Shown: piece by piece, positions 46,176 to 61,975 of the stretch
How the letters are laid out: each line of letters opens with the position of its first letter
How positions within the stretch are numbered: position 1 is the first letter of the stretch
Assembly (NCBI GenBank): GCA_001897355.1
Contig: MKST01000007.1
Span: 124,228-188,227 of the forward strand
Direction of reading: 5' to 3'
DNA from: Solirubrobacterales bacterium 67-14
GTDB taxonomy: Bacteria > Actinomycetota > Thermoleophilia > Solirubrobacterales > 70-9
Length of the DNA: 64,000 nt
Notes under the pieces: generated by a model
The model's database searches: none
Seen by the model: the letters and a program-made list of their open reading frames with translations, nothing else
What the model was told of the DNA's origin: nothing
Position numbers and translations under genes: made by a program

Positions 46176-47822
46176 ATGGCTGACTCTTCCGACCAGCCCT
46201 CAGACACCTCGTCGCGGAGCAAGATGTGGATCACGCTGATCGCGATGACGGTCAGCTCGGCCATGATCCTGGTCGACCAGACCTCGGTGCCACTGGCGAT
46301 CCCGCACGCGATGCAGGATCTCGGCGGGAACCCGTCCCTCGGTTCCTGGATCCTCACGGCGAACATGCTGCCGTTGGCCGCTTTCATGGTGCTGGGAGGT
46401 CGGCTCGGGGACATCTTCGGCCTGCGGAAGATTTTCCTGATCGGCGCGATCATCTTTGCCGGATCGTCGGCCCTGGCCGGATTCGCGCAGGACGTTCCCT
46501 GGATCATCACCGCCCGGGCGATCCAGGGCGCCGGGGCCGCCTTGATGATGCCGACCGCGGTGGCGATCGTCAGTGCAACCTTTCCTCGTGACGAGAAGGG
46601 CAAGGCACTCGGCCTGCTGGCCGGATTCGCCGCCTTCGCAGCCGCGCTCGGCCCGGTGATCGGCGGCGGCCTCGCCTCGATCGACTGGCGGCTCGTCTTC
46701 CTCGTCAACACTCCCCTGGCGATCGTCACCGTCCTGCTGACGCTCAACGCGACCCAGCCGCTCAAACTGAACGAGCACGCCTCCCGGAACCTCGACCTGC
46801 CCGGGGTCACGGTCTTCTCGATCGGCATCGTCGGCATCGTCTACGGGCTGAGCCAGGCGGCTCAGCTCGGGATCGGGGATGCTCAGGTCCTCGTCCCGCT
46901 GGGGATCGCGGTGGCCGCCTTCGTCGGATTCTGGTTCGTCGAGAAGCGCAGCACCAGCCCGATGATCGAGTTCCGGCTCTTCCGCCACCTCAACTTCCTC
47001 GCTTCCAACATCAGCCAGTTCCTCGCCGGGATGATCGAGCTCGGCACGGCTTACCTGCTGCCCTATTTCCTGCTGATGATGATCGGGCTCTCGCCGATCG
47101 CCGCCGGTATCGCCCTGATCCCGGCGACGGTGCCGATCATGCTCGCCGGGCCGCTGGCGGGCAAGATGTTCGACCGGGTCGGCGGCCGGGTTCCCCTGGC
47201 CACCGGGTTCCTCGTGCTGGCCGCCTCCGGCATCGCCTTCGCCCTTGCGGTGAGCCACCGCGAGTACGTCTACTTGCTCCCGGGGCTGATTCTGCAGGGC
47301 ATCGGCCTCGGCATGGTGCTGACCGTGAACGACCCGACCGGGCTCGATTCGGTGCCGCCCGAGGACCAGGGCCAGGCCGCAGGGGTGATCAACACGAGCG
47401 AGCAGCTCGGCGGGGCGGTTGGCATCGCCGTGCTTTCGGCCGTCCTGATCAGTGACTCGATCCACCGGACCAACGAGCAGCTGGCCGCCAAAGGAGTCCA
47501 TCCGACCGCGGCCCAGACCGCCGAGTGGAAGGACTTCATCCAGAAGATCAATGCGGAAGGCCTCGGCAACATCGACATCTCGAACCAGCCCGAGACGATC
47601 CGCTTCGCCCTGAACGATGTCCTGAACGCCCACGTCGCCGGATACGAAGCGGTCTTCTACACGACGGCCGGGATCGCCCTGCTCGGGGCCCTTTTCTGCT
47701 TCTTCTTGGTCCGCAGGTCAGACCGCGTCGAGGAGGGCCGAATCTTCATCCGCCGCTCCCGCTGGGTCACCTCGAACACAGGCCGCACCCCAGCAATCAC
47801 CAAACACCCGCCGACGGACTAA
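46176..47822 (+). CDS. MFS transporter, DHA2 family, 14 helices
   Basis: A 548-residue exporter with about 14 hydrophobic helices. Signatures include SAMILVDQTSVPLAIPHAM (about 28-46), GGRLGDIFGLRKIFL (about 75-89) and a motif-C-like GFAAFAAALGPVIGGGLA. A hydrophilic loop of about 60 residues before the last helix is usual in the EmrB/QacA group. It may be co-transcribed with the enoyl-CoA hydratase gene (21-base gap). Its stop overlaps that of the convergent potA-type gene by four bases. Confidence 0.85.
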   Translation: MADSSDQPSDTSSRSKMWITLIAMTVSSAMILVDQTSVPLAIPHAMQDLGGNPSLGSWILTANMLPLAAFMVLGGRLGDIFGLRKIFLIGAIIFAGSSALAGFAQDVPWIITARAIQGAGAALMMPTAVAIVSATFPRDEKGKALGLLAGFAAFAAALGPVIGGGLASIDWRLVFLVNTPLAIVTVLLTLNATQPLKLNEHASRNLDLPGVTVFSIGIVGIVYGLSQAAQLGIGDAQVLVPLGIAVAAFVGFWFVEKRSTSPMIEFRLFRHLNFLASNISQFLAGMIELGTAYLLPYFLLMMIGLSPIAAGIALIPATVPIMLAGPLAGKMFDRVGGRVPLATGFLVLAASGIAFALAVSHREYVYLLPGLILQGIGLGMVLTVNDPTGLDSVPPEDQGQAAGVINTSEQLGGAVGIAVLSAVLISDSIHRTNEQLAAKGVHPTAAQTAEWKDFIQKINAEGLGNIDISNQPETIRFALNDVLNAHVAGYEAVFYTTAGIALLGALFCFFLVRRSDRVEEGRIFIRRSRWVTSNTGRTPAITKHPPTD

Positions 47823-48907
47823 CTCAGGACCATGCAGTGCTCGGGGTGCCAGCCGACCTTCACCTTCTGGCCGACCTCCCACTGCTCGTCGGCCCGCATC
47901 CGGTAGGTCGCCTGTTCGAGGGCGACCAAGCGGCTGCCGTTGCCGAGCTTGAGCGTGAGCTGGTTGCCGACCCCGAGGTAGACCTTGCTCTCGATCTCCC
48001 CTTCGACCGTGAACATGTCGGGCTCGATCGCGTAGGCGTCGGCACCGATCTCATCCACCGCCACCTTCTCGGGCCGGACCGCGATCTGGATCGTGTCGCC
48101 GTTCCCGGCGCCGTCCAGTCCGGGCACCGGCAGGCAGTCGTCGCCGATCCGCACCTTCCCGCCCGGCTCAACCTTGCCCTCGAGCAGGTTCGAGACCCCG
48201 ATGAACCCGGCCACGAACTCCTCGCGGGGATGCTCGTAGATTTCCTCTGGCGGCCCGCATTGGGCGACCCGACCGTCGCTCATCACGGCGATCCGGTCGG
48301 ACATCGAGAGCGCCTCTTCCTGGTCGTGGGTGACGTAGACGAAGGTGATCCCGACCTCGCGCTGGATCGCCTTCAGCTCGATCTGCATCTGGCGGCGGAG
48401 TTTGAGGTCGAGGGCGCCGAGCGGCTCGTCGAGCAGCAGCACCCGGGGGCGGTTGACCAGGGCGCGGGCCAGGGCGACCCGCTGGCGCTGGCCGCCGGAG
48501 AGCTCGTTCGGTCGGGCGGCGGCCCGGCTCGAAAGGTCGACCAGCTCGAGCGCCTCGGCGACCCGGGTCACGATCTCGTCCTTCGCCACCTTCTTGCGCT
48601 TGAGCCCGAAGGCGACGTTGCCTTGGACGTCCAGGTGCTCGAAGAGGGCGTAGCTCTGGAAGACCATGTTGACGTTGCGCTGGTGGGGCGGCACATCCTC
48701 GACCGGGTCGCCCTCGAGCAGGATCCTGCCCGCGGTCGGCACCTCGAACCCGGCCAGCATCCTCAGCGTGGTCGTCTTGCCGCAGCCGGAAGGGCCGAGC
48801 AGGGAGAAGAACTCGCCCTGGGCGATCGAGAGGTCGACGTCATCGACCGCGGTGAAATCACCGAACCGCTTGGTCACGTTCTCGATTCGGATTGCCTCTT
48901 CGGCCAT
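47819..48907 (-). CDS. Polyamine-type ABC transporter ATP-binding protein (PotA-like)
   Basis: A 362-residue ATPase with Walker A GPSGCGKTT (about 39-47), LSGGQRQR (about 135-142), Walker B LLLDEPLGALD (about 155-165) and a C-terminal TOBE domain. The sequence type is that of spermidine/putrescine or related amine importers. It is the last gene of the operon that runs Rieske oxygenase, flavoprotein, TetR, PotD, PotB, PotC, PotA, with no gaps over 35 bases. Substrate is inferred from the operon, not proven. Confidence 0.87.
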   Translation of the reverse strand: MAEEAIRIENVTKRFGDFTAVDDVDLSIAQGEFFSLLGPSGCGKTTTLRMLAGFEVPTAGRILLEGDPVEDVPPHQRNVNMVFQSYALFEHLDVQGNVAFGLKRKKVAKDEIVTRVAEALELVDLSSRAAARPNELSGGQRQRVALARALVNRPRVLLLDEPLGALDLKLRRQMQIELKAIQREVGITFVYVTHDQEEALSMSDRIAVMSDGRVAQCGPPEEIYEHPREEFVAGFIGVSNLLEGKVEPGGKVRIGDDCLPVPGLDGAGNGDTIQIAVRPEKVAVDEIGADAYAIEPDMFTVEGEIESKVYLGVGNQLTLKLGNGSRLVALEQATYRMRADEQWEVGQKVKVGWHPEHCMVLS

Positions 48908-48908
48908 C

Positions 48909-49733
48909 TCACTCCTCCGCTCCGGTCAGTACCTTGACCCCGCTCTCGCGGCGCCCGAACAGCCTCGGAACCAGGACCGCCAGGGCGACGGCGCTGATCG
49001 AGACGACCATCATCAAAGTGCCGACCGCGTTGATGGTCGGCGAGACGCCGAACCTGATCATCGACCAGATCCGCACCGGCAGCGGCTGCGCGTCCTCGCC
49101 GGTGGTGAAGAAGGAAAGGACGAAATCGTCGAAGGAGAGCGCAAAGACGAGCAGCCCGGCGGCGACGATCGCCGGCCAGAGCGAGGGCACCAGGACCAGG
49201 CGCACCGATTCCCACTTGCTCGCGCCGAGGTCCTGCGCCGCGTCTTCGACCTCGGTCCCGATCGTCGCCAGCCGGCCGCGGACCACGATCGTCACGTAGG
49301 AGATCGAGAAGGTGATGTGGGCCAGCACGATGGTCCAGATCGAGAGCGTGATCCCGAGCTGGGAGAAGATCAGCAGGGCCGAGATGCCGGCCACGATCTC
49401 GGGGGTGATCAGCGGCACCAGCATCAGGATGTTGAACCCCTTGGCGGTGCCGGAATGGGCCCGGACCAGGCCGATCGCCAGAGCGGTGCCGACGATGGTC
49501 GAGATCACCATGGTCAGGACCGCGATCTGCACCGAAGTCAGCAGCGAGTCCATCAGGGTCGGGTCGTTGAAGAAGTCCGAGTACCAGCGGAAGGAGAACC
49601 CCTGCATGACCTGGAGCGACTTCTCGCTGTTGAACGAGAAGACGATCACGATGACGATCGGGATGAACAGGTAGAGGTAGACCAGCCCGGTGAAGACCCG
49701 GAGGAAACGCGGCTTGTAGAAGGGCTCGGACAC
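48909..49733 (-). CDS. ABC transporter permease (PotC-like)
   Basis: A 274-residue membrane subunit with six helices. It opens with a PRFLRVFTGLVYLYLFIPIV helix, and the coupling loop EDAAQDLGASKWESVRLVLV (about 162-181) contacts the ATPase. It belongs to the binding-protein-dependent transport family of PotC. One base separates its stop from the PotA-like start codon, and three bases separate its start from the PotB-like gene. Confidence 0.87.
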   Translation of the reverse strand: MSEPFYKPRFLRVFTGLVYLYLFIPIVIVIVFSFNSEKSLQVMQGFSFRWYSDFFNDPTLMDSLLTSVQIAVLTMVISTIVGTALAIGLVRAHSGTAKGFNILMLVPLITPEIVAGISALLIFSQLGITLSIWTIVLAHITFSISYVTIVVRGRLATIGTEVEDAAQDLGASKWESVRLVLVPSLWPAIVAAGLLVFALSFDDFVLSFFTTGEDAQPLPVRIWSMIRFGVSPTINAVGTLMMVVSISAVALAVLVPRLFGRRESGVKVLTGAEE

Positions 49734-49736
49734 CCG

Positions 49737-50585
49737 TTACAGCACCTCCGCCTCGCCGCGGCTCGCCCGCCGCAGGTAGAAGACCATCCAGACCGCCAGG
49801 AAGAGCATCATGATCACGGTCAGGGCCGAGCCGAAGGGCCAGTTCGAGGCGGCGAAGAACTGGTCCTGGATCAGGTTGCCGACCATGTAGGTGTCCGGCC
49901 CGCCGAGCAGCTGAGCGGAGACGAAGTCACCGACCGCGGGCAGGAAGACGAGCACGCAGCCGGCCAGGATCCCGGCCTGGGTCGCCGGCAGGGTCACGTG
50001 GAGAAAGGTGCGGAAGGGCGAACCGTAGAGATCCTTGCCGGCCTCGATCACCGAGGGGTCCATCCGCTCGATCGAGCCGTAGAGCGGCAGGATCATGAAG
50101 ATGATGTAGCCGTAGACCAGCCCGCCGATCACGGCGAAGGGCGTGTTGATGAACTGGATCGGCTGCTGGGAGAGACCGAGGTCGACCAACAGGTTGTTGA
50201 CCAGCCCCTGGTCGGAGAGCAGGGCGACCCAGGCGTAGGTGCGGACCAGGTAGTTGACGAAGAAGGGGATGACCAGGGCGGCCAGCAGCGCGTAGCGGTA
50301 GCGGCCGCCGTGGCGGGCGATGAAGTAGGCGACCGGGTACCCGACCAGCAGGCAGAGGATGACCGTGGCCAGCGCGTAGCCGACCGAGCGGAGCAGGACC
50401 GGGACGTAGGTCGGGTCGAAGACGTCCTTGTAGTTGTCGAGCGTGAAGCCGTAGACCCCGCGGCCGAAGTCGTCGACATGGCCGAAGGAAAGGGCAAGGA
50501 CGAGGCAGAGCGGGACCGCGAAGAGCAAGGCGATCCACACCCCGCCGGGAAAGATGAACCAGTCCCAGAAGCGCTTGCTGGTCAA
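49737..50585 (-). CDS. ABC transporter permease (PotB-like)
   Basis: A 282-residue permease with six predicted helices. It has the N-terminal WFIFPGGVWIALLFAVPLCL helix and a coupling loop EAGKDLYGSPFRTFLHVTLP (about 181-200). It forms the second half of the membrane channel with the PotC-like subunit. It starts ten bases after the binding-protein gene in the same operon. Confidence 0.87.
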   Translation of the reverse strand: MTSKRFWDWFIFPGGVWIALLFAVPLCLVLALSFGHVDDFGRGVYGFTLDNYKDVFDPTYVPVLLRSVGYALATVILCLLVGYPVAYFIARHGGRYRYALLAALVIPFFVNYLVRTYAWVALLSDQGLVNNLLVDLGLSQQPIQFINTPFAVIGGLVYGYIIFMILPLYGSIERMDPSVIEAGKDLYGSPFRTFLHVTLPATQAGILAGCVLVFLPAVGDFVSAQLLGGPDTYMVGNLIQDQFFAASNWPFGSALTVIMMLFLAVWMVFYLRRASRGEAEVL

Positions 50586-50595
50586 CGCTCCCCCC

Positions 50596-51705
50596 TCATG
50601 CCTTCACCTCGGTCCAGATCCGGGTCCACTCCTGCCGGGCCTCGGGGCTGTCGAGCCGGTACTCCATCGCCGAGTCGGCCAGCTGGTCGAGGTTCACGTC
50701 GATCGAAGGGTCGTCCTTGACCAGCTTGGCGAACGCTTCCCGGCCGCCCGCGACGGGCATCGGATAGCCGTTCCACATCACGTTCTTGTAGGCGTTCTCG
50801 GGCTTCAGCACCCAGTCCATGAACATCATTGCCGTGCCCGGGCTCTTCGAGGTGATCGGGATGCACATCAGGTCGGAGCCGACCGGCACCCCTTCCTTGC
50901 AGGTCTCGTAGGCGAAGATCGAGGGGTCGTCGACCTGGTTCCTGGCGTTGACCACATCGCCGTTCCAGGCCTGGGTCAGGGCCGCCGCCCCGGAGACCAG
51001 GTTCTGGACCGAGTTGGTGGAGAAGCCGCGCAGTCCCTTCTTCTGGTCGAGCAACGTGTCCTTCGAGGTTTGCAGCTGGTCCGACTTGTCGGTGTTGAGG
51101 TAGAAGCCGTTGAGCAGGTTGGCCTGGCCGATCCCCTCCTGAAAGTCATCGAGCATGAAGATGCGGCCCCAGGCCTGCTCGTTCGAGAGGTCGTTCCAGG
51201 AGCCGGTCAAGGTGTCGACCTCGTTCGTGTTCCAGGCGATCCCGGTCGTGTAGTAGGCGTAGGGGACCGAGAACTCGGAGTTCGGGTCGTACCAAGGGTC
51301 GTCGTAGAACTTGGAGAGCGTGTCGGCGTTCTTCAGCCGGGAACGGTTGAAGGGCCGGATCAGTTGTTCGTTCCGGAGCCGGAGCACATACTCGGTCGAG
51401 GGGAAGATCAGGTCGTAGGAACCGCCCGCCCGCAGCTTGGTCATCATCGCTTCGAGGTTGTCGAAGTTGACCTCGTTCACCGCTACCCCGTACTTGTCGG
51501 CGAAGCTCTTCTTGATCGAGGGATCCATGTACTGGGCCCAGTTGAAGATCATCAGGTCACCGTCGATCTTCGGCTCGACCACATCTCCGGCCGCCGACTT
51601 GTCGATCGGCCGCTCGACCGTGCAGCCGCTCAGCCCGTAGGCCGTGGCCAGCAGTCCCGCCCCGGCCAGCAGCAACTGCCGCCGATTGAGCCCTATGTCA
51701 CCCAT
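50596..51705 (-). CDS. ABC transporter substrate-binding lipoprotein with Tat signal (PotD-like)
   Basis: A 369-residue extracellular receptor. The N-terminus has NRRQLLLAGAGLLATAYG, a twin-arginine-type signal, ending in a lipobox Cys (LSGCTVERP, near residue 28). The mature part has FNWAQYMDPSIKKSFADKYG and IFPSTEYVLRLRNEQLI, typical of PotD/PotF-type polyamine receptors. GGGGGA lies about nine bases before the ATG at 51705, so this start is preferred over a TTG three codons earlier. Ligand specificity cannot be read by eye. Confidence 0.87.
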   Translation of the reverse strand: MGDIGLNRRQLLLAGAGLLATAYGLSGCTVERPIDKSAAGDVVEPKIDGDLMIFNWAQYMDPSIKKSFADKYGVAVNEVNFDNLEAMMTKLRAGGSYDLIFPSTEYVLRLRNEQLIRPFNRSRLKNADTLSKFYDDPWYDPNSEFSVPYAYYTTGIAWNTNEVDTLTGSWNDLSNEQAWGRIFMLDDFQEGIGQANLLNGFYLNTDKSDQLQTSKDTLLDQKKGLRGFSTNSVQNLVSGAAALTQAWNGDVVNARNQVDDPSIFAYETCKEGVPVGSDLMCIPITSKSPGTAMMFMDWVLKPENAYKNVMWNGYPMPVAGGREAFAKLVKDDPSIDVNLDQLADSAMEYRLDSPEARQEWTRIWTEVKA

Positions 51706-51738
51706 CCCGCACAATCCCCCGTGTCGTGCGGTCCCCGG

Positions 51739-52374
51739 TCACTCGGTCAAGGCCTCCGGCTCGATCCCGAGTTCCCTGGCAATTCGTGTGGCTGCCAGCA
51801 CCCTCACCCTTTCGACGTCCATGTCCGGGTCCTCCATCAGGGCTCTTATCCCCAGCCCGTCGAGCAGGCCGATCGCAACATCGGCACTGGCCTCGGGATC
51901 CTCCGTCTCGAACTCCCCACGTTTCACACCGTAACGGATGACCTCCAGCATCCAGTCCCGATAGCTGGCATAGAGCCGTCGGCCGAGCGGCCGGGATTCT
52001 TCGTGGCGAGCTGCCCGCAGCCAGAGTTCGAGCCAGAGCAGCCACTCCTGATGCTGGCGACCCTCGATCGGCAGGCACTCGTCGATCATCACCTTGAGCT
52101 GCTCCACCGCGGACGCGTTGGGGTCGACCGGCTGACCGAAACGGTCCTCCGCGGCCAGCTCGTAGGAATGCATCAGCGCTTCCTCGAGCAGATCCTCACG
52201 GGTCGAGAAGTAGTGGTGGACCAGTGCGGTCGAGGCTCCGGCCCGCATCGCGACCCGGGCGATCCGCATGTCGTCGATCCCCTCCTCGGCGATCACGGCG
52301 CAGGCCGCTTCGAGGATCCGGTCGCGAGCGGTCTTCGCCGCGCCTGCAGTCGCGCCGTCCGGTGCCGCGGGCAT
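51739..52374 (-). CDS. TetR-family regulator of the amine operon
   Basis: A 211-residue TetR protein, helix-turn-helix MRIARVAMRAGASTALVHHY (about 34-53) and a ligand domain. Its gene sits between the flavoprotein and the transporter genes, so it is co-expressed with the genes it most likely controls. A shared inverted repeat at 55280-55297 and 60254-60271 is the best candidate for its operator. ATG 52374 has AAGG five bases upstream; a TTG at 52392 that overlaps the flavoprotein stop is an alternative. Confidence 0.83.
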   Translation of the reverse strand: MPAAPDGATAGAAKTARDRILEAACAVIAEEGIDDMRIARVAMRAGASTALVHHYFSTREDLLEEALMHSYELAAEDRFGQPVDPNASAVEQLKVMIDECLPIEGRQHQEWLLWLELWLRAARHEESRPLGRRLYASYRDWMLEVIRYGVKRGEFETEDPEASADVAIGLLDGLGIRALMEDPDMDVERVRVLAATRIARELGIEPEALTE

Positions 52375-52388
52375 CGGTGCCTTCGCGT

Positions 52389-54044
52389 TCAAGCGGCCTC
52401 CGCTCCGATCGTCAAACCGACGTCGGCCAGCACCGCCTCGGCCGCGTTGCGCCCGTTGAGCGCGATCACGCTGCCGGCCGGGTGGGTGGCGGCACCGGAC
52501 ATGTAGAGGCCGGGGATCGGGGTTCGGGAACTGAGCCGGCCCTCCCACATCTGGTCCGGCGTCACCTCTCCCTGGAAGATGTTCCCCCCGGTCAGGCCGA
52601 CACGCGATTCGATGTCCGGCGGGCCGAGGACTTCGTGACTGATCACGCATTCACCATAGTCGGGCGCGAAGCGGCTGATCAGGTCGATGAACTGCTGCGC
52701 AACGCCTTCGCGGGCGGCGTCCCAGTCGCTGCCGCTGATCTCGTAGGGCGCGTACTGCCCGAAGACGCTCATCAGGTGCTTGCCCTCCGGCGCGACAGTC
52801 GGGTCGTACCCGGTCTGGATGTAGATCTCGGCGAAGGCGACCGCCGGTTCGCCGGACGCGCATTTCTCGAAGGCCGCCTGGGCTTCGTCCATCGGCCCGC
52901 AGGCGTCGATCGTCGCCTGGGCCGGCCAGGTCTCGCCCGGGGCGGCCGCCCATTCCGGTAGCCGGGAGAGCGCCGCGTTGAACTTGACCACCGGGCTGCG
53001 GATCTTCCAGGCCTCCAGGCGGCTCTTGAAGGTGGGGTCGATGCCTTCGGCGGACTCGGCTTCGAGCATGCCCAGGGTCCGTTTCGGGTCGGCGTTGGAG
53101 ACCACGTTGCGGGCCCGGACCATGGTGCCGTCCTCGCAGATCACGCCCTCGCCGGGGACGATCCCGGCGACCTCGACCCCACAGGCGATCTGCGCCCCGG
53201 CCTCGAGGGCGGCGTCGGCGATCGCGAAGCTGACCATGCCCATGCCACCTTCGACGTAGCCCCAGACCGGTCCCTGGCCTTCGAGGTCGCCCTGGTAGTG
53301 CATCAGCTTGATCGAGGCGGTGCCCGGCTCGTACGGCCCGCCCCAGGTTCCGATCACGCCCTGGCCGTAGAGGGCGGTCTTCAGCTTCTCGTCCTCGATG
53401 TAGCGGTTCAGCACCTCGGCGATCGAGTCCTCGAAGACCAAGTCGACCATCTCCTGGTCGTCGAGGATCTCCTCGATCTGGGCCCGGGTCGGGGTGTCCC
53501 CGACCCAGGTGTCGCGCTCGCCTTTGCGCAGCTTGATCCGGGTCTGGTCGAAGAGTTCCTCGTAGGCCCAGTAGCCCTTCTGGTCGGCCTCGCTCACCCC
53601 GAGCGCGTCGAGGTTCGCTCTAGTCTTCGCGTCGTCTAGGAACTGGCCGAATGCGGTCCCATCTTCGAATGGCACCCAGAGGTTGGGGTCGGCGGTGAAG
53701 AAGCGCAGGCCGCGGCGGCGCAGCTCGAGCTCGTCGATCACCAGGTTGTCGAGCAGCCCGACCACGTAGGCGCAGGGACTGACCAGGTAGCCGTCGCCGA
53801 AGGGCTCCTCCAGCGTGCAGGCGCCCCCGATCTGGTCGCGGCGTTCGAGCACCAGCACCTCCTGGCCGGCCCGGGCGAGATAGGCCGCGGCGGTCAGGCC
53901 GTTGTGCCCGGCCCCGACCACGATCGCATCCCAGTCCTTCGCCGCGAGAGCGGAGAGTGGCTCCGGCATTCCGAGCTTGCCCAGCTTCGCCGCAACCGGG
54001 TTCGCGTTTACGGGATCCCCGGTCGCCTTCAGCGGGTCGCTCAC
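52389..54044 (-). CDS. FAD-dependent oxidoreductase, PYROXD2/phytoene-desaturase-like (copy 1)
   Basis: A 551-residue flavoprotein. The FAD motif DAIVVGAGHNGLTAAAYLAR (about 39-58) is followed by VLERRDQIGGACTLEE (about 64-79), and the C-terminal GLYMSGAATHPAGSVIALNG closes the FAD domain. This is the PYROXD2/CrtI-like group of amine- or polyene-oxidising enzymes, with substrate unknown. It overlaps the Rieske gene by four bases, so the two probably act together. A paralogue is encoded at 60296 under the same predicted operator. Confidence 0.85.
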   Translation of the reverse strand: MSDPLKATGDPVNANPVAAKLGKLGMPEPLSALAAKDWDAIVVGAGHNGLTAAAYLARAGQEVLVLERRDQIGGACTLEEPFGDGYLVSPCAYVVGLLDNLVIDELELRRRGLRFFTADPNLWVPFEDGTAFGQFLDDAKTRANLDALGVSEADQKGYWAYEELFDQTRIKLRKGERDTWVGDTPTRAQIEEILDDQEMVDLVFEDSIAEVLNRYIEDEKLKTALYGQGVIGTWGGPYEPGTASIKLMHYQGDLEGQGPVWGYVEGGMGMVSFAIADAALEAGAQIACGVEVAGIVPGEGVICEDGTMVRARNVVSNADPKRTLGMLEAESAEGIDPTFKSRLEAWKIRSPVVKFNAALSRLPEWAAAPGETWPAQATIDACGPMDEAQAAFEKCASGEPAVAFAEIYIQTGYDPTVAPEGKHLMSVFGQYAPYEISGSDWDAAREGVAQQFIDLISRFAPDYGECVISHEVLGPPDIESRVGLTGGNIFQGEVTPDQMWEGRLSSRTPIPGLYMSGAATHPAGSVIALNGRNAAEAVLADVGLTIGAEAA

Positions 54045-55240
54045 GCCTCCACCCTTTCTTTCAGCTCCTCCATGTACCTGGTGGCAACCAGGTTGTCGAA
54101 CTCGTGCACCGTCCCCTCCTCCGCCGAGTAGCGCCCCGCCGTGTAGCCGGTCGTGCCGACGCCCTTCTGGGTCAGCTCGCAGACGTACCAGTCCTGACGG
54201 TTGGTCTGGTCCCAGAACTCGATCGCATCGGAGGGGTCAAAGCCCTCCGCCTCGACCGCCCGCTTTTCGAAGAACCACTCGCAGATCACCTCGGTCCGGC
54301 CGGGCGCTCGCGGATAGAGGGTGTGGAGCATCACGTAGTCGGGGTGCATCGAGACCAGGGCGTTCGGGAAGAGCGCGAAGTAGAGGATCGTCTTCTCGTC
54401 CTGCTCGGAGAGGCCTTCGATCCGGGGCCGGTTGCCGGCGTGGCCGCCTTCCTTGCCCATGGTCGCCGCATCCTCGGCGGTGAGGAACATCGAGCCGCCG
54501 CACCAGGCGCCGTCGCCCTGCATTTCCTCGCCGCTCATGTAGTTGGAGAGCGCGTTCAGCTCCGGGTGCACTCCGGGGCAGTGGAGGCACTCGTTGTAGT
54601 TCTCGGCGATGCCCTTCCAGTTGGCGTTCACCTCGTAGTCGATGCGGCCGCCGCTGAGCAGTTCGGCGTTGCGGTAGCGCTCGAGATGGTCGATCAAGTT
54701 GCCGACATGCTGGTCCGGCGCGGGCGCCTCGCCACCCAGGTCGACCAGGATCAGCCCGCCGAGCGTGGCCAGCCGGACCGGGATCAACCCGTAGCAGGAC
54801 TTGTCGAAATCGTCGACCCCGTCCATGTGCGGCGCGGCGACGAGCGAGCCGTCGAGGGCGTAGGACCAGGCGTGGTACGGGCACTGGATCCGTCGCTTGA
54901 CCTGGCCGTCGGACGCCTCGACCACCCGCGCCCCGCGATGCCGGCAGACGTTGAGGAAGGCATGGGGATGACCGTCCTCTCCGCCGACCACGACCACCGA
55001 GTCCGGGCCCATCTCCCGACGGATGAACTTGCCCTGCTCACTGACCTGGGAGATGTGCCCGAGGCAGATCCAACCGTCGTGGAAGAGGTGTTTCATCTCC
55101 CAGTCGAAGACCTCCTGGTCGACGAAGGCAGCCGGCGGCAGCATCGAGGCGGTCTCCAGGGGGCGCAATGCCCGACCCACGTCTGCCGGGTTCAGAGGAA
55201 GGGTTCCGTTCCGGTTGCCGCTGCGGTTGACCATGCTCAT
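54041..55240 (-). CDS. Rieske non-heme iron oxygenase, alpha subunit
   Basis: A 399-residue ring-hydroxylating-type oxygenase. The Rieske 2Fe-2S ligands are Cys99, His101, Cys120 and His123 (CRHRG, CPYHAW). The catalytic iron site has NYNECLHCPGVHPEL with His220 and His225. The bridging residue before it is Glu217, where naphthalene dioxygenase has Asp; I recall a bridging Glu being reported for quaternary-amine oxygenases such as CntA. It should hydroxylate or N-dealkylate an amine. No reductase gene is adjacent. It is the first gene of the seven-gene operon, with GAGGAG before the ATG. Confidence 0.85.
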   Translation of the reverse strand: MSMVNRSGNRNGTLPLNPADVGRALRPLETASMLPPAAFVDQEVFDWEMKHLFHDGWICLGHISQVSEQGKFIRREMGPDSVVVVGGEDGHPHAFLNVCRHRGARVVEASDGQVKRRIQCPYHAWSYALDGSLVAAPHMDGVDDFDKSCYGLIPVRLATLGGLILVDLGGEAPAPDQHVGNLIDHLERYRNAELLSGGRIDYEVNANWKGIAENYNECLHCPGVHPELNALSNYMSGEEMQGDGAWCGGSMFLTAEDAATMGKEGGHAGNRPRIEGLSEQDEKTILYFALFPNALVSMHPDYVMLHTLYPRAPGRTEVICEWFFEKRAVEAEGFDPSDAIEFWDQTNRQDWYVCELTQKGVGTTGYTAGRYSAEEGTVHEFDNLVATRYMEELKERVEA

Positions 55241-55267
55241 CTCGCTCCTCAGGGTCGCCTTGAGGCG

Positions 55268-55309: not shown

Positions 55310-55351
55310 GAGTCCATTCCGCTTGGATAAACGAGTTCGGCGAGGGAGTCA

Positions 55352-56545
55352 ATGAACCAGACAGCCACAATCCCCGGAGACCAGGGCCTGACGGACGAGG
55401 CGCTCGACCTCCAGCGAAGAGCCCGCAACTACGTCGAGGACGTGCTGATCCCGCTCGAACAGGAGGCGGAACTGCTGCATGGCAGGCTGCCCGAAGAGAC
55501 CATCCGGCTGGTCAAGGAAAGAGCCCTCGCGGCCGGCCTGACCGGCGGCCTCCACAAGTCCGAGAACGGCGGCCAAGGCTGGTCGAAGACCGAATGGTTT
55601 CTGGTCGAAGAGCAGCTCGGCCGCTCGACCAACGCGATCTCCTGGCACATCCCCAACGGCTACAACGTCTGGGACCTGGCCGCGGAAAAGCACGTCGAGA
55701 AATGGTTGAAGCCGCTGCTGCGCGGCGAGGCCCGAGACGCCTACGCGGTGACCGAACGGGGCGCCGGTTCGGACCCCTCCGGGATCGAGACGACCGCGGT
55801 CCGCACCGAAGGCGGCTTCCGGATCAACGGCGAGAAGTGGTTCGTGACCTCCGGCGACGTCGCCGACGTGCTGGTCGTGATGGCCAATCTCGACGAGGGC
55901 GGTGAGCTTCTCCCCACCCTGTTCGTGGTCGACAAGTCGCTGGGCGGGGTCGAGACGATCGAGGATCCGGGCTTCACCCATTCCTACCCGGATGGTCACC
56001 CGACGATCCGCTTCGAGGACGTCGAGGTCGAGGAGGACGACGTGATCGGCGGGGTCGGCGGTGGCGATGAGGTCCAGAAGGCTTGGTTCGCGGAAGAGCG
56101 CCTCGGGATCGCTGCCCGCGGGATCGGTTCGATGTGGCGGCTGCTCGAAGAGACGGTCGAGTGGGCCGTCACCCGCGAACAGGGCGGCTCGCGGATCATC
56201 GATTACCAGGGGGTCTCCTTCCCCTTGGCCGATTCGGCGACCGACGCCGCGGCGGGCCGCCTGCTCACCCTCGAGGTGGCCCGGCTGATCGACGCCGGCG
56301 CCGACCCGAAGGTCTGCCACAACAAGGCTTCGATGGCCAAGCTGTTCGTCTCCGAAGCGGCCTGGCGCTGCGCCGACCGCTGCGTCCAGATCTTCGGCGG
56401 CCGCGGCTACCGTCGCGACAACGTCGCCGAAAGATTCCTGCGCGAGCTCCGGGTCGACCGGATCTGGGAGGGAACCAGCGAGATCCAGCGCCTGATCATC
56501 GCCCGCGGCCTCGAAAAACGCGGAGTAGAAGCCCTGATCCAGTGA
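55352..56545 (+). CDS. Acyl-CoA dehydrogenase
   Basis: A 397-residue FAD-dependent dehydrogenase. It has AVTERGAGSDPSGIET (about 132-147), GEKWFVTSGDVADV (about 160-173) and the C-terminal RIWEGTSEIQRL with the Glu used as catalytic base in the family. It should introduce a 2,3 double bond into an acyl-CoA formed downstream of amine breakdown. It is the first gene of the divergent operon, and the CoA synthetase start overlaps its stop by four bases. Confidence 0.87.
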   Translation: MNQTATIPGDQGLTDEALDLQRRARNYVEDVLIPLEQEAELLHGRLPEETIRLVKERALAAGLTGGLHKSENGGQGWSKTEWFLVEEQLGRSTNAISWHIPNGYNVWDLAAEKHVEKWLKPLLRGEARDAYAVTERGAGSDPSGIETTAVRTEGGFRINGEKWFVTSGDVADVLVVMANLDEGGELLPTLFVVDKSLGGVETIEDPGFTHSYPDGHPTIRFEDVEVEEDDVIGGVGGGDEVQKAWFAEERLGIAARGIGSMWRLLEETVEWAVTREQGGSRIIDYQGVSFPLADSATDAAAGRLLTLEVARLIDAGADPKVCHNKASMAKLFVSEAAWRCADRCVQIFGGRGYRRDNVAERFLRELRVDRIWEGTSEIQRLIIARGLEKRGVEALIQ

Positions 56546-58707
56546 TCCGGCCGACCCCGCTTCTGAGGCCTGGTTCGGTGGCTGTCGTGGGGGCGACCGA
56601 GCGGCCCGGATCCTATGGCGACACCGTGGTCCGCAACCTCGACGTGGCCGGCTTCCCCGGCGACCTCTACTGCGTGAATCCGGGCCGCGAGAGCGTGCAC
56701 GGCCACCCCTGCGTCCCTTCGCTCCGTGACCTGCCCTCGCCGGTCGACGCGGTGGTCGTCGCCGTGCCCGCCCCGGCCGTGAATCCGGCGATCCGGGAGG
56801 CGATCGAGACCGGCTGCGGCGGCGCCGTCGTGGTCTCGGCCGGTTTCGGCGAGACCCCGGCCGGGACCGGGCTGGAGAGCGAGCTTTCCTCGCTCGCCCG
56901 GGCCGCCGGCTTCCCGGTCTGCGGGCCGAATGGCAACGGCGTGATCAACCTCGGTCACCGGGCTCCGCTCTGGGGCGATTCGGTCCCGGCCGGACTCGAG
57001 GCGGGCGGCGTCGCGATGATCTCCCAGTCCGGCAACGTCGCGGTCAACGCGATCGGCTCGAAGCGAGGCATCCGGTTTCACACCGTGGTCTCGACCGGCA
57101 ACCAGGCGGTGCTCGGCACGGGCGACTGGCTCGGTGCGATCGCCGAACTCGAGGGGGTCCGGGCGATCGCCCTCTTCCAGGAGACCGACGGCGACGGCGC
57201 CGAACTGGCCGAGGGGCTGGCCGTCTGCGCCGAGCGCGAGATCGGCGTCGCCGTGCTCAAGGTCGGCACCTCCCAGGCCGGCCAGGCCGCCGCAGCCGCC
57301 CACACCGGCGCGATCGCGGGTGACCAGAGAGTGTTTCGCGCCCTGGTCGAAGAGGCTGGTGCGGCCTGGGCCACCGACCCACACGAGTTGCTGGAGATCA
57401 CCCGCGTCCTGGCCGAGCCCCGGGCCCGGCCCCGGCGCCCCGGGCCGCCCCGGTCCGGCCTCGCCATCCTCACCTGCTCGGGTGGCGATTCGGGCATCGC
57501 CGCCGACCAGGCCGAGGGGATCGGCCTGCAGTTGGCGGAACTGGACGGCGAAACCCAGGGCCGGCTGCGGGAGCTGCTGCCCGAGGCGGCCACGGTCGGA
57601 AATCCGCTCGACTACACCTCGCTGCTCTGGTTCGAGACCGACCGCCTGGCCGAGATCGTCGAGGCGGTCGGCAGCTGCGAACCGGTCGAGCAGATGCTGA
57701 TCTTCCACGACCACCCGGCCGACCTCCGTCCCGAGCATGAATCCGAGTGGGGAGCGGTGCGGCGCGCCCTGGCCGAGGGAGCCCTCCGTTCCGGCTGCCC
57801 GGCCCTTTTCGCCTCCACCCTGCCCGATCTGGTCTCGGCCGACGGCCGGCGGGAACTGGCCGAGACCGGGATCCCCATGGTCGGCGGGATGCGGGCGGCC
57901 CTTGCCGCGGCCGCGGCCAGCCAGCGGCTCGGCCGGATGGAGAGGGGCGCAGTCGCGGAGCAGCTCGGAGCGATCGCCGCCGCAACGCGAAACACCTCGG
58001 AAAACGGCATCGAAGGGGACGGCTCGTGGCTTGCCGAGCATCGAACCAAGTCGATCCTCCGGGATGCCGGGGTCTCCGTTCCGCTTTCCCTCACTGCCCT
58101 CTCCCCCGCCGCCTGCCTGACCGCGGCCGCCGGCCTGTCCTTCCCACTTGCCCTGAAGCTGTCCGGTCCGGGCATTCGGCACAAGTCCGAGCTGGGAGCG
58201 GTCCGGATCGGGATCGCGGACGACGCCGAATTGCTTCATCACGCCGAAGACCTGATGTCGATCGCCGGCCAGATCCACCTCGAAGCGGGGTTGGCCGGCG
58301 AGCCATCCGCCGAGCCACCGCTCTTCCTGGTCGAGGAGATGGCCGGGACCGGGATCGAGCTGATCGTCACCGCCCGCAGTGACGCGGTGATCCCTTCGCT
58401 GACCGTCGGTCTCGGCGGGATCTGGGCCGAGCAGCTGGCCGACGGCGTCGTGGTCCCCCTGCCGGCTTCGCCGGTGCAGGTGAGGGAAGCGTTGCCTCGC
58501 CTCAAGGCGTTCGGCCTGCTCGAAGGTAGCCGTGGCAGCCGACCGGTCGACCTCGACGGACTGGCGGAGTTCGCCTCGAAGCTAGGCCGGCTACTGCTCG
58601 ACTACCGCGACGAGGAGGGCCGGGGCTTCGACCTGATCGAACTCAACCCGGTCGTGGCCGGGCCGGACGGCACGATCGCCCTCGACGCACTCGCCCACCT
58701 GGCCTGA
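56542..58707 (+). CDS. ADP-forming acyl-CoA synthetase (fused alpha/beta, acetate-CoA ligase type)
   Basis: A 721-residue fusion. The N-terminal CoA-binding Rossmann domain opens RPGSVAVVGATERPGSYGDT (about 10-29), the ligase domain has ISQSGNVAVNAIGSKRG, and the C-terminal ATP-grasp_5 part has LALKLSGPGIRHKSELGAV and FDLIELNPVVAGPDG. It makes an acyl-CoA, or recovers ATP from one, with ADP as product. A GTG at 56542 that overlaps the dehydrogenase stop is the start; a much longer open frame upstream lies inside that gene. Confidence 0.83.
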   Translation: MIRPTPLLRPGSVAVVGATERPGSYGDTVVRNLDVAGFPGDLYCVNPGRESVHGHPCVPSLRDLPSPVDAVVVAVPAPAVNPAIREAIETGCGGAVVVSAGFGETPAGTGLESELSSLARAAGFPVCGPNGNGVINLGHRAPLWGDSVPAGLEAGGVAMISQSGNVAVNAIGSKRGIRFHTVVSTGNQAVLGTGDWLGAIAELEGVRAIALFQETDGDGAELAEGLAVCAEREIGVAVLKVGTSQAGQAAAAAHTGAIAGDQRVFRALVEEAGAAWATDPHELLEITRVLAEPRARPRRPGPPRSGLAILTCSGGDSGIAADQAEGIGLQLAELDGETQGRLRELLPEAATVGNPLDYTSLLWFETDRLAEIVEAVGSCEPVEQMLIFHDHPADLRPEHESEWGAVRRALAEGALRSGCPALFASTLPDLVSADGRRELAETGIPMVGGMRAALAAAAASQRLGRMERGAVAEQLGAIAAATRNTSENGIEGDGSWLAEHRTKSILRDAGVSVPLSLTALSPAACLTAAAGLSFPLALKLSGPGIRHKSELGAVRIGIADDAELLHHAEDLMSIAGQIHLEAGLAGEPSAEPPLFLVEEMAGTGIELIVTARSDAVIPSLTVGLGGIWAEQLADGVVVPLPASPVQVREALPRLKAFGLLEGSRGSRPVDLDGLAEFASKLGRLLLDYRDEEGRGFDLIELNPVVAGPDGTIALDALAHLA

Positions 58708-58756
58708 GCCGTTTGGCGACGACGGGCCGTCAGGCCACCACCGGGCTTGTTGTCGA

Positions 58757-60190
58757 TCAGATCGGGCGGTTGGAGCTTTGCGGGGCCGGGTGGCCGTGGA
58801 CCCTTGCGGCGGTGATCTCCAGGCCCTCGCGGAGGATCCCGGCGATCTCCTCGAAGAGGGCTCCTTCGGCGACCAGGGGCGGAGCGATCTGGATGATCGG
58901 GTCGGCCCGGTCGTCGAGGCGGCAGAGCAGGCCGCGCTCCCAGAGAGCTTCCGAGAGTACGTTCTTGAACAGCGCCTCCGACTCCTCGCCCTTGAAGGGC
59001 TCCTTCGTCGCCTGGTCGCGGACCAGTTCGATCGCCCAGAAATGCCCGGTGCCGCGGACCTCGCCGACGATCGGGATGTCGAGCAGGGACTTCAGCGAAG
59101 CCTCGGCTACCGGCGCGTTGGCGTTGACGTTGGCCAGCACGTTTTCGCGTTCGAGGATCTCCAGTGCTTTGAGGGCGACCGCCGAGCCGACCGGGTGGCC
59201 GCCGAAGGTGTAGCCGTTGTTGTAGTCGGCGCGGCCGTCGAAGAACGGCTCGGCGACCTTGTCGCTCATCAGCACGCCGCCCATCGAGAAGTGGGCGCCG
59301 GTCAGGCCCTTGGCGAAGGTGACCAGGTCCGGCACATAGTCGAACTTCTGGCCGCCGAACCAGGTGCCGATCCGGCCGTAGCCGCAGATCACCTCGTCCG
59401 AGCAGAGCAGGATGTCGTGCTCGTCGCAGATCTTCCTCAGGCCCTGCCAGTAGCCGGCCGGGGGCATGAAGCAGCCGCCCGCGTTCTGGACCGGTTCGGC
59501 GATCATCATCGCGATCGTCGAGGGATCCTCGAACTCGATCGTCTCCTCGACCTCGTCGAGCAGCGCCCGGCAGAAGGCCGCCTCGTCGTCACCGTCCGGA
59601 TGCCGGTAGGAGCTGGTGTTGCTGACGTGGACGGTCGGAATGCCGAGCGGGTCGAAGGGGGTGCGGCAGACCGGGATCCCGGTGAAGGAAAGCGCGCCCA
59701 TGGTCACCCCGTGGTAGGCGTCCTTGCGGGCGATCACCTTGCGACGCCGCTCGTGCCCGTTCGCCTGCTGCCACTGGACCGCCATCTTCCAGGCCGCCTC
59801 GACCGACTCCGAACCGCCCGAGGTGAAGTAGACCTTGTTCATGCCCTCCGGGGCGAGCGAGGCGATCTTCTCGGCCAGCTCGATCGAAGGCGGATGGGCG
59901 ACCGTCCAGTTGGTCGCGTAGGGCAGCTGCTTCATCTGCTCATGTGCCGCCTCGCCGATCTCGTCGCCGTGGGAATGGCCGAGCGAGGCGCAGTAGAGGC
60001 CGGAGAGGCCGTCGATGTAGCGGTTGCCCTCGTCGTCGAAGACGTGGACCCCCTCGCCCCTCTCGATGATCGTGATGCCTTCCTCGACCGCCGATTTCAT
60101 GTCGGAGAAATGCAGCATCAGATGCTGCTTCGCCGAGGTTTCCAGATCCACCTTGGTGGTGGCTTCAGCAGTACCGCTCTCTCCCGTCAT
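58757..60190 (-). CDS. Class III (omega) aminotransferase
   Basis: A 477-residue PLP enzyme of the aspartate aminotransferase family, class III. The substrate and cofactor segments are YFTSGGSESVEAAWKMA (about 119-135), DEVICGYGRIGTWFG and TFAKGLTGAH, whose Lys should bind PLP. This group includes putrescine-pyruvate and beta-alanine-pyruvate transaminases. The ATG at 60190 is used although the frame is open upstream. Predicted operator site 2 lies 64 bases before it, shared with the divergent flavoprotein gene. Confidence 0.87.
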   Translation of the reverse strand: MTGESGTAEATTKVDLETSAKQHLMLHFSDMKSAVEEGITIIERGEGVHVFDDEGNRYIDGLSGLYCASLGHSHGDEIGEAAHEQMKQLPYATNWTVAHPPSIELAEKIASLAPEGMNKVYFTSGGSESVEAAWKMAVQWQQANGHERRRKVIARKDAYHGVTMGALSFTGIPVCRTPFDPLGIPTVHVSNTSSYRHPDGDDEAAFCRALLDEVEETIEFEDPSTIAMMIAEPVQNAGGCFMPPAGYWQGLRKICDEHDILLCSDEVICGYGRIGTWFGGQKFDYVPDLVTFAKGLTGAHFSMGGVLMSDKVAEPFFDGRADYNNGYTFGGHPVGSAVALKALEILERENVLANVNANAPVAEASLKSLLDIPIVGEVRGTGHFWAIELVRDQATKEPFKGEESEALFKNVLSEALWERGLLCRLDDRADPIIQIAPPLVAEGALFEEIAGILREGLEITAARVHGHPAPQSSNRPI

Positions 60191-60253
60191 GGCTCTGAGT
60201 CTATTCCCCGGCCCGCTTCGACCCGGGACTTTACTTATAGTTCCATAGCTCGA

Positions 60254-60271
60254 ATTGACCTTGTAGTCAAT
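60254..60271. promoter_or_regulatory. TetR-type operator, site 2
   Basis: ATTGAC-CTTGTA-GTCAAT is a perfect inverted repeat identical in its core and spacer to site 1 (55280-55297), followed by the same TCGCA. On the minus strand TTGACT with a 17-base spacer and TATGGA (60242-60247) form a promoter for the aminotransferase. In the plus direction a TTGACC -35 is present but no good -10 follows. Confidence 0.75.
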
Positions 60272-60295
60272 CGCACTTTGGGGTAGGGTCGGGCC

Positions 60296-61975
60296 ATGGA
60301 GGCCCACACGATGTCCCCCGGTAGCGCCCCCTCGACCCCGGCGGCGAGCGGCGGAATCCCCTCGCAGTACGACGCGATCGTGGTCGGCGGCGGCCACAAC
60401 GGCCTGACCACCGCGGCCTATCTCGCCCGGGCCGGCATGAAGACCCTGGTCCTCGAACGCAGGCGGATCCTCGGCGGCGCCTGCGTGACCGAAGAGGTCT
60501 GGCCCGGAGCCCGCGTTTCGCGCTGCTCCTACGTGGTTTCCATGCTGCAAGAGAAAGTCGTCTCCGACCTGCGGCTGAAGGACTTCGGCTACAAGGCCTA
60601 CCCCCTCGACCCGGCCTACGCGGCGATGACCGAGGACGGGCCGATCTTCTTCTTCAACGAGGTCGAGCGGACGGTCGAGTCGATCCGCCGCTTCTCACCG
60701 AAGGATGCCGACAACTACCAGGCCTTCGAGGAACTGCTCGAAAGCACGGCCGAGTTCCTGCGGCCGATGCTGCTGCGCGAGCCCCCGGCCCTCGGTTCGA
60801 AGTCACCCGGTGACATCGCGGGCCTGATCCGCGAAGGGGCCCGCATGGCGGGTCTCGGCAAACGCGACATCGCCAACCTGGTGCGCATCTTCACGATGTC
60901 GGTCGGTGACCTGCTCGACGACTGGTTCGAGTTGGATGCCCTGAAAGGCTCGATCGCCTCGACCGGCGTGGTCGGGGTCTGGGCCGGCCCCCGCACCCCC
61001 GGCACCGCCTACAACCTGCTCCACCACGCACTGGGGGAGCTCGACGGCATGGGCGGCGTCTGGGGTCAGGTGGTGGGCGGCATGGGTGCGATCTCGAACG
61101 CGATCGCCCGCTCGGCCCAATCTCATGGGGCGACGATCCTCACCGACGCGGAGGTCGCTTCGATCGACATCGAGGGCGGCCGGGTCGTCGGCGTGACCCT
61201 CGCCGACGGCGACAGCTATCGCGCTCCGGTCGTTGCCTCCGGCGCCCACCCCAGGACGACCATCCTCGACCTGGTCGGCGGCCGGCACTTCGACGACGAC
61301 GTGCGGACCGACATGGAGCGCTACCGCACCCGCGGTGGCTCGGTCAAGGTCAACTACGTCCTGAACGAGGCGCCCGAGTACGCGAACGTGACCCCGGAAG
61401 AGCAGAAGATGCTGCTCGGCGCCGGGGTCAACATCTGCCCCTCGATCGACTACCTCGAGGCCGCCTGGCAGGACGCGCTCCGGGGCCGTCCCGCCGCGGC
61501 GCCCTACATCGAGGCCGAGTTCCCCTCCTCGATCGACGACTCCCTGACCGACGACGACCGGGTGATCATGACCATGTTCACCCAGTACGGGCCTTCCGAA
61601 GAAGCGGAATGGGCGGAGGGCGACCGCGAACGCTACGGCGAGACCTGCATCGACATGCTGAGCCGGTTCGCCCCGAACTTCCGCGAGGCGATCGACCAGT
61701 ACGAGGTGCTCGCCCCGCCGGATCTGGAGAGGATCTTCGGCCTCCAGGGCGGCTCGATCTTCCAAGGCGAGCAGGGCATGAACCAGATGGCCTTCATGCG
61801 GCCGACCCCGGACATGGCCCAGTACGCCACCCCGGTCGGCGGCCTCTACCTCTGCGGCGCCGGCACCCATCCCGGCGGGGGCGTGACCGCGGCCTCCGGC
61901 CACAACGCCGCCCACCGCATCCTCAAGGACCGGCGCTCGGTGCGCTGGCCCTGGCGTCGCTCGGCCAAAGCCTGA
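60296..61975 (+). CDS. FAD-dependent oxidoreductase, PYROXD2/phytoene-desaturase-like (copy 2)
   Basis: A 559-residue paralogue of the protein at 52389. The FAD motif is DAIVVGGGHNGLTTAAYLAR (about 24-43), then LVLERRRILGGACVTEEVWP, and the C-terminal YLCGAGTHPGGGVTAASGHNA closes the FAD domain. It probably oxidises a related amine intermediate. It starts 25 bases after the shared operator. An ATG five codons later is a possible alternative start. Confidence 0.83.
   Translation: MEAHTMSPGSAPSTPAASGGIPSQYDAIVVGGGHNGLTTAAYLARAGMKTLVLERRRILGGACVTEEVWPGARVSRCSYVVSMLQEKVVSDLRLKDFGYKAYPLDPAYAAMTEDGPIFFFNEVERTVESIRRFSPKDADNYQAFEELLESTAEFLRPMLLREPPALGSKSPGDIAGLIREGARMAGLGKRDIANLVRIFTMSVGDLLDDWFELDALKGSIASTGVVGVWAGPRTPGTAYNLLHHALGELDGMGGVWGQVVGGMGAISNAIARSAQSHGATILTDAEVASIDIEGGRVVGVTLADGDSYRAPVVASGAHPRTTILDLVGGRHFDDDVRTDMERYRTRGGSVKVNYVLNEAPEYANVTPEEQKMLLGAGVNICPSIDYLEAAWQDALRGRPAAAPYIEAEFPSSIDDSLTDDDRVIMTMFTQYGPSEEAEWAEGDRERYGETCIDMLSRFAPNFREAIDQYEVLAPPDLERIFGLQGGSIFQGEQGMNQMAFMRPTPDMAQYATPVGGLYLCGAGTHPGGGVTAASGHNAAHRILKDRRSVRWPWRRSAKA

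Follow-up and report, generated by a model that had tools for sequence, protein, structure and literature searches.

A predicted TetR-type regulon for methylated-amine catabolism, with PYROXD2-like flavoproteins as candidate demethylases, in a Solirubrobacterales bacterium

In a 64,000-nucleotide stretch of the Solirubrobacterales bacterium 67-14 genome (MKST01000007.1, positions 124,228 to 188,227; the whole stretch is referred to as the window), eleven genes that appear to encode an importer and a set of enzymes were found behind two promoters that have a palindrome in common. We read this gene set, with a probability of roughly 0.6, as a TetR-repressed regulon with two promoters. Its products would import a cationic amine, either quaternary or N-methylated, demethylate its nitrogen oxidatively and step by step, then remove the amino nitrogen and degrade the carbon chain in a CoA-dependent way. 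In the predicted order of reactions, a PotABCD-type importer would take in the cation, a Group V Rieske oxygenase would remove the first methyl of the quaternary nitrogen as formaldehyde, and two PYROXD2-like flavoproteins (PYRX1 and PYRX2; PYRX for the type) would oxidise the dimethyl and monomethyl amine. A class III aminotransferase (AT3) would turn the primary amine into an aldehyde, which an aldehyde dehydrogenase with its gene elsewhere would oxidise to the acid, and an ADP-forming acyl-CoA synthetase together with an acyl-CoA dehydrogenase (ACAD) would begin beta-oxidation. The substrate or a product would free the TetR regulator from its operator at both divergent promoters. The window lies on contig C7 of a 3.23-Mb assembly (12 contigs, ~95% complete); below, fetched locus stretches are labelled L and genomes G, each with a number.

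An earlier reading of the same DNA from its letters and open reading frames (ORFs), here called the sequence-only reading, had proposed a seven-gene operon with tight spacing. The seven minus-strand genes from PotA to the Rieske oxygenase indeed follow one another closely, neighbours overlapping or standing apart by no more than about 35 bases, in the families and at the positions that it had given. Also recovered were the importer encoded within the oxygenase operon, the divergent ACAD and ADP-forming synthetase and, beyond these, AT3 and a second flavoprotein, all of which it had described (Table 1).

The common palindrome, TTGACCTTGTAGTCAA, is a perfect 16-base TTGAC-N6-GTCAA sequence present in both divergent intergenic regions. 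Across the assembly, a scan gave the two perfect copies and five further sites with two mismatches; no site had a single mismatch, and a reversed control gave 0. Within the window, the scan gave the two exact copies plus three matches at three mismatches, with a mean of 0.16 matches at up to three mismatches in window shuffles; none lay before the flanking isochorismatase-type gene or the block of transporter, hydratase and TetR genes below position 47822. The sole sigma-70-type promoter match between 55100 and 60500 (0.3 expected) was TTGACT-17-TAACAT on the minus strand, directed toward the Rieske operon. Its –35 element falls inside operator copy 1, an arrangement as for a repressor site. 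By the common predicted operator at both promoters, whose copies are unique in the assembly at up to one mismatch, the gene set is one predicted regulon, and this part of the sequence-only reading thereby gained support.

The operator was also followed through relatives. In a class-wide draw of 149 genomes, at least ten members of family f1 were among the matches listed. Six of those listed have a close Rieske relative, and in G133 and G136 the operon contains a different Rieske gene. For G005 the sole Rieske match is distant (91 bits), for G059, of the same genus, there is none, and neither genome has a PYRX match at 1e-50. Exact TTGAC-N6-GTCAA stands at the oxygenase promoter in seven of the eight family-f1 genomes with the operon (the window, L039–L043 and L051), and the eighth (G133, L052) carries a one-base variant. 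A second operator between AT3 and PYRX2 was predicted for L154 (G093) before it was found there, and occupies the same place in L042, L059, L060 and L154. No operator was found in eight other stretches around further PYRX genes (L155–L162), of which L155 has PYRX2 downstream of ACAD and ligase on the same strand. The window, L043 and L059 have one TetR in the operon, all with the operator, and some relatives have a second TetR. Because the operator is kept where the operon holds a single TetR, the operon's own TetR is the likelier binder; we infer both its binding of TTGACCTTGTAGTCAA and its ligand. This TetR scores 75 bits against the BetI model TIGR03384, below the cut-off of 201, and its BetI-type C-terminal domain (PF13977) exceeds the Pfam cut-off.

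The Rieske protein carries the motif E-C-x-H-C-x3-H at the mononuclear iron and the [2Fe-2S] ligands CxH...CxxH, both invariant in six orthologues (residues in Table 1), while the column of D350, a third iron ligand by position only, is Asp in 19 of 19 aligned rows. Among solved structures, its best relatives are 4qup and 3vca, taken here to be the stachydrine demethylase Stc2, followed by 3n0q and the carnitine monooxygenase CntA (6y8j). Stc2 and CntA have the same ligand motifs, but the window protein reaches only ~160 and ~130 bits with them and stands in another gene context. Its best NCBIfam model is that of the glycine betaine monooxygenase GbcA (NF058607), at 213 bits against a cut-off of 670, which places it outside GbcA itself. 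Excerpts of one article describe Group V Rieske oxygenases as enzymes of quaternary ammonium substrates and report that the Cys pair occurs solely in certain Group V members, of which two, CntA and Stc2, have solved structures (PMC10952381). By this signature the Rieske protein is assigned to Group V, with predicted activity as a quaternary-ammonium oxygenase. Oxidation of an aromatic amine or an aromatic ring, to which the name of its Pfam family (ring-hydroxylating alpha subunit) would point, is very improbable in view of the signature, and neither a beta subunit nor a dihydrodiol dehydrogenase nor a ring-cleavage gene occurs among the 16 window genes scanned; ring oxidation was rejected on these grounds. 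Sequence patterns of the Rieske protein retrieved no relatives in viral contigs. In a metagenome-assembled genome (MAG) of a Thermoplasmata archaeon (L064), a PYROXD2-like gene is adjoined by two Rieske genes that carry the Group V signature.

Glycine betaine is converted to glycine by GbcAB, DgcAB and sarcosine oxidase. The route proposed here is similar in that Rieske demethylation of a quaternary amine would be followed by flavoprotein demethylations, in that GbcA is the best model of the Rieske protein, and in that a DAO-GCV_T fusion occurs in the related clusters L066 and L069. It differs in the low GbcA score and in having PYROXD2-like flavoproteins in place of DgcA and sarcosine oxidase, and the window adds a Pot importer, an aminotransferase and beta-oxidation genes. 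Alphaproteobacterial plasmid clusters (Parasedimentitalea, Rhizobium sp. SL42, Shinella zoogloeoides and Fuscovulum) come closer, with the same gene families in one locus; these four have tandem flavoproteins and an aminomethyltransferase, but no ACAD or CoA ligase is annotated, the annotation being by family only. Within the open-access literature, to which the search was confined (subscription papers were outside its scope), no description of such a gene cluster was found among the matches listed, and papers on carnitine and butyrobetaine turned up.

The importer resembles E. coli PotABCD in that all four subunit families are present and PotA exceeds the polyamine subfamily model TIGR01187, and differs in that PotB, PotC and PotD lie below their equivalog cut-offs (PotD at 115 bits against 582). 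The PotD-like protein has W, Y, D, E, W, D and Y aligned with E. coli PotD positions that we take to be polyamine-binding; the first aligned W is Y in L040. These features might suggest ordinary polyamine catabolism, with import of putrescine or spermidine, flavoproteins acting as polyamine oxidases, AT3 as an aminotransferase of the putrescine or polyamine:pyruvate type, and a side step left to the Rieske protein. Both aminotransferases are indeed among the solved relatives of AT3, putrescine oxidase is among the fold neighbours of PYRX1, and an aminobutyraldehyde dehydrogenase is encoded in L039, L051 and L156 (701–707 bits for PRK13473, cut-off 615; below the TIGR03374 equivalog cut-off). 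We nevertheless consider such a pathway unlikely. It would not account for the Group V signature, for the DAO-GCV_T fusions, for the neighbouring aminomethyltransferase genes or for a gene resembling 4-methylaminobutanoate oxidase, and two PotD pocket positions, Y and W in E. coli PotD, are changed to E and G in all nine aligned rows (eight genomes).

The extra genes of relatives also bear on the substrate. In L039, L042 and L043, a flavoprotein behind PotA is like 4-methylaminobutanoate oxidase (236 bits in L042, 249 bits in L043; that of L039 is 55% identical to that of L042), and alanine dehydrogenase, whole or in part, is found in L039, L051, L155 and L156. Together with the aminobutyraldehyde dehydrogenase, these genes would fit a C4 methylated diamine or betaine. 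An N-methylated diamine of the putrescine type, or its betaine 4-trimethylaminobutanoate, is our best, if rather doubtful, guess at the substrate. The substrate class of the sequence-only reading, "an amine", is narrowed by the Group V signature and the N-demethylation gene neighbours.

A betaine could also be handled by a carnitine- or butyrobetaine-type route, in which the CoA ligase would activate the acid end first, ACAD would act on the betainyl-CoA, and the Rieske protein, flavoproteins and aminotransferase would act on the product. The nearest known relatives of the Rieske protein include CntA and GbcA, the ligase and ACAD have their operator in common with it, and a 3-hydroxyacyl-CoA dehydrogenase lies near the L043 and L051 loci. 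This route is nonetheless judged less likely still, as ACAD falls short of the model for crotonobetainyl-CoA dehydrogenase (135 bits, cut-off 540) and a Pot-type receptor would be unusual for betaines. Glutaryl-CoA dehydrogenase was likewise rejected as an identity for ACAD (117 bits, cut-off 470).

Oxidative N-demethylation by the regulon is further suggested by the neighbourhoods of Rieske genes in other bacteria. Eighty loci were fetched by Rieske alignment, and 76 (L063–L138) were counted, leaving out the nearest kin (L059–L062). Neighbours were counted on six-frame ORFs; an ORF caller tuned to the codons of the window genome missed genes elsewhere. The Group V signature was present in 56 of the 76 loci, whose fetched stretches contained PYRX in 19 cases, AT3 in 15, PotB with PotC in 14, a CoA ligase in 12, a GcvT-type gene in 11 and ACAD in 8, with at least three of five window families in 13. 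The 20 loci without the signature gave PYRX once, PotB with PotC once, and AT3, CoA ligase, GcvT-type genes and ACAD not at all, a contrast that is not clean because these loci are also more distant relatives.

Other actinobacterial loci contain much of the window gene set in rearranged form, and so do Rhodobacterales loci, except that ACAD and CoA ligase are missing there. Five actinobacterial loci (L074, L069, L066, L082 and L083), one of them from Kineosporia and one nanopelagic, share the order aminotransferase–TetR and then ACAD–ligase–Rieske; their ACAD is 60–65% and their aminotransferase 50–52% identical to that of the window. For L082, the TetR appeared in one of the gene annotations only. 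The mycobacterial loci L070, L077, L080 and L090 encode ligase, flavoprotein, TetR, Pot genes, aminotransferase and Rieske. Because the set recurs in other lineages and one palindrome is common to both promoters, its assembly appears to be beyond chance. The comparison of relatives that the sequence-only reading had proposed accordingly turned out in its favour, with the genes co-occurring in family f1, actinobacterial and Rhodobacterales loci among others. A parallel demethylation-like locus, L044 (G148:C4:35500-55000), combines a 40% identical Rieske protein and Pot-type genes of its own with genes for an aminomethyltransferase and a protein of the NADH:flavin oxidoreductase type.

The flavoproteins are labelled PYROXD2-like, as in the sequence-only reading, and their relationship to eukaryotic PYROXD2 is presumed. 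PYRX1 and PYRX2 score 175 and 250 bits against NF045689 (cut-off 1000) and 92 and 115 bits against TIGR02734 (cut-off 238); a carotenoid function (CrtO or CrtI) was rejected on model cut-offs and neighbourhood. In a tree, PYRX2 groups with flavoproteins of mycobacterial and acidimicrobial clusters (Shimodaira–Hasegawa-like approximate likelihood-ratio test, SH-aLRT, 91), and tandem flavoproteins fall in two separate clades. Four of six plasmid stretches (Rhodobacterales and Rhizobiaceae) encode two adjacent flavoproteins and then an aminomethyltransferase, beside an aminotransferase, TetR, a Pot-type importer and a Rieske protein. As for the other two, L144 has a single flavoprotein followed by a GcvT gene, and L143 a single one with neither a second flavoprotein nor GcvT.

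Proximity of PYRX and Rieske genes was counted in 40 genomes chosen from the 80 Rieske loci, and thus picked for having a Rieske relative but not for its position. PYRX matches of at least 380 bits had a Rieske gene within 10 kb in at least 22 of 38 cases (0.79 expected), and three weaker bands, among the matches listed, in 2 of 11, 1 of 8 and 3 of 45 (expected 0.36, 0.27 and 0.48). GcvT-like genes above 200 bits adjoined PYRX in 12 of 13 cases among the matches listed. The GcvT-like and Rieske counts come from the best rows listed and are lower bounds; 23 GcvT-like rows were used (19 above 130 bits plus four near PYRX).

A second sample comprised 151 genomes of the alphaproteobacterial family of G182, which, except for G182 itself, were not chosen for these genes. 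PYRX matched at 1e-90 in 35 genomes and above 800 bits in 31, and these are the same 31 genomes that have a GcvT-like gene, always within 2 kb. A Rieske gene was present in 36 of the 151 genomes, including all 31, and on the same contig in 28. Fisher tests gave 6e-33 for PYRX with GcvT-like and 2e-27 for PYRX with Rieske, values that ignore kinship and count PYRX only above 800 bits (31 of the 35).

Fusions were found in addition. In L066 and L069, where no PYRX was seen, the cluster encodes a DAO-GCV_T protein of 817–822 aa, the layout of dimethylglycine dehydrogenase. L082 and L083 encode a GcvT-matching protein of the fusion's length, and L083 also has PYRX and a separate GcvT-type gene; in L160, from the window's own family, a GcvT-like gene directly precedes a PYROXD2-like gene. 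Taken together, the aminomethyltransferase, Rieske and fusion neighbourhoods of the flavoproteins point to oxidative N-demethylation. Further PYROXD2-like proteins were seen beside importers. In an unlinked locus of the same genome (L053, G000:C11:346500-366000), PotA, two binding proteins, PotC, PotB and a 38% identical PYROXD2-like protein stand in a row, and in a relative (L162) PotD, PotC and PotB accompany a 38% identical one. A 40% identical protein is encoded at 8969–10699 of L054 (G000:C7:53000-72500), with neighbours that by eye are a peptide-type ATP-binding cassette (ABC) importer and a LacI-type regulator.

Several observations weigh against the proposed demethylation regulon, besides the unclean contrast between Rieske loci and the kinship ignored by the Fisher values. 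L051 and L052 keep the operon, with the operator exact in L051 and as the one-base variant in L052, but their Rieske protein is swapped for one that is 29–31% identical and lacks the Cys pair, and the Rieske proteins counted in the 151 genomes are also without this pair. L039 has no PYRX1 at the locus. L043 (G041) keeps Rieske, PYRX1, TetR and operator, but all that is left of its Pot importer is a piece of PotA of ~100 residues. The sequence-only reading had spoken of a complete route, which does not hold for the window: no aminobutyraldehyde-type aldehyde dehydrogenase, alanine dehydrogenase or aminomethyltransferase was matched among its 61 ORFs, and no Rieske reductase was found among the 16 genes scanned, the rest of the window and genome not having been searched. 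Own-genome stretches fetched outside the window, which fall short of a whole-genome search, gave aldehyde dehydrogenases of at best 36–38% identity and no alanine dehydrogenase.

Other such points concern the flavoproteins. A fold comparison ranks carotenoid desaturases first for PYRX1 and amine oxidases (including putrescine oxidase) second, and we did not count it in favour of amine oxidation. In the tree, PYRX1 makes up a separate clade with long branches, away from the flavoproteins that adjoin aminomethyltransferases, and the transfer of the N-demethylation function to PYRX1 is the weakest link of our proposal. The 4 of 35 alphaproteobacterial genomes with a weaker PYRX match (338–420 bits) have no GcvT-like match. 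G151 and G154, from which L066 and L069 come, each pair PYRX with an adjacent GcvT-like gene on a different contig, so that the DAO-GCV_T fusion would not be a plain replacement. The window's assembly has only two GCV_T genes (a strong one of 298 bits and a weak one of 92 bits), both on contig C3 and outside the locus. Coupling to folate is thus not supported for this lineage, and the methyls may leave as free formaldehyde.

Table 1. Predicted features of the gene set, with positions in the window
Feature	Position	Strand	Basis or remark
PotA-like ATPase	47819-48907	minus	TIGR01187 380 bits, cut-off 356
PotC-like permease	48909-49733	minus	family models
PotB-like permease	49737-50585	minus	family models
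PotD-like substrate-binding protein	50596-51714	minus	family models; lipobox by eye
TetR regulator, BetI-type C-terminal domain	51739-52374 (start ATG 52374 or TTG 52392)	minus	family models; proposed repressor, both operators
PYRX1, PYROXD2-like flavoprotein, CrtI/CrtO/amine-oxidase superfamily	52389-54044	minus	proposed N-methylamine dehydrogenase, predicted function
Rieske oxygenase alpha subunit, Group V type	54041-55240	minus	E217 C218 H220 C221 H225; Rieske ligands C99 H101 C120 H123
Predicted operator copy 1, TTGACCTTGTAGTCAA	55281-55296		between Rieske and ACAD
Acyl-CoA dehydrogenase (ACAD)	55352-56545	plus	family models
ADP-forming acyl-CoA synthetase	~56542-58707	plus	GTG 56542 overlaps ACAD stop; later starts possible
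Class III aminotransferase (AT3), 477 aa	58757-60190	minus	PRK06541 624 bits, cut-off 574
Predicted operator copy 2, identical TTGACCTTGTAGTCAA	60255-60270		between AT3 and PYRX2
PYRX2, second PYROXD2-like flavoprotein	60296-61975	plus	predicted function

The gene set is flanked at 62009–62614 by an isochorismatase-family hydrolase gene, convergent with PYRX2 and without an operator in front. On the other side, positions 43193–47822 encode a PucR-type regulator, a second TetR, an enoyl-CoA hydratase (ECH) and an EmrB-type efflux transporter of the major facilitator superfamily (MFS; above the TIGR00711 cut-off). The PucR, TetR and ECH genes also adjoin the operon in L059, a Solirubrobacterales MAG that is the closest named relative at the locus and whose Rieske protein is 85% identical.

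Human PYROXD2 is described as poorly characterised in excerpts of two articles (PMC8777681, PMC3706909), the first of which calls its precise function little known. In an excerpt of a plasma study, PYROXD2 was the strongest locus, for N6,N6-dimethyllysine, and N6-methyllysine was also associated (PMC9730628). An excerpt of a further article reports the PYROXD2 locus for missing N2-acetyl-N6,N6-dimethyllysine, with significance lost after adjustment for diabetes in one of two cohorts (PMC13352909). Excerpts of two articles cite links of PYROXD2 with dimethylamine (PMC3706909) and with trimethylamine (PMC8777681). Among the literature matches listed, none presents PYROXD2 as a demethylase or, since 2021, assigns it an enzyme activity. 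The bacterial neighbourhoods independently predict the same chemistry as these associations of the presumed human relative. We tentatively propose that PYROXD2-like flavoproteins are widespread, unrecognised N-methylamine demethylating dehydrogenases that act after a Rieske oxygenase, often with one-carbon handover to a GcvT-like aminomethyltransferase, and that human PYROXD2 may be a mitochondrial demethylase for methylated lysines or related amines, a proposal to which we give somewhat less than even odds.

The locus is real and conserved, and is best read, from its genes and their neighbours, as one for methylated-amine catabolism with a predicted flavoprotein demethylase. This reading would give a testable function to a flavoprotein family that is annotated after carotenoid enzymes or just as "NAD(P)/FAD-dependent oxidoreductase". 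For the regulon, a predicted operator is at hand, and the neighbourhoods hint at a role for the family, possibly including human PYROXD2.

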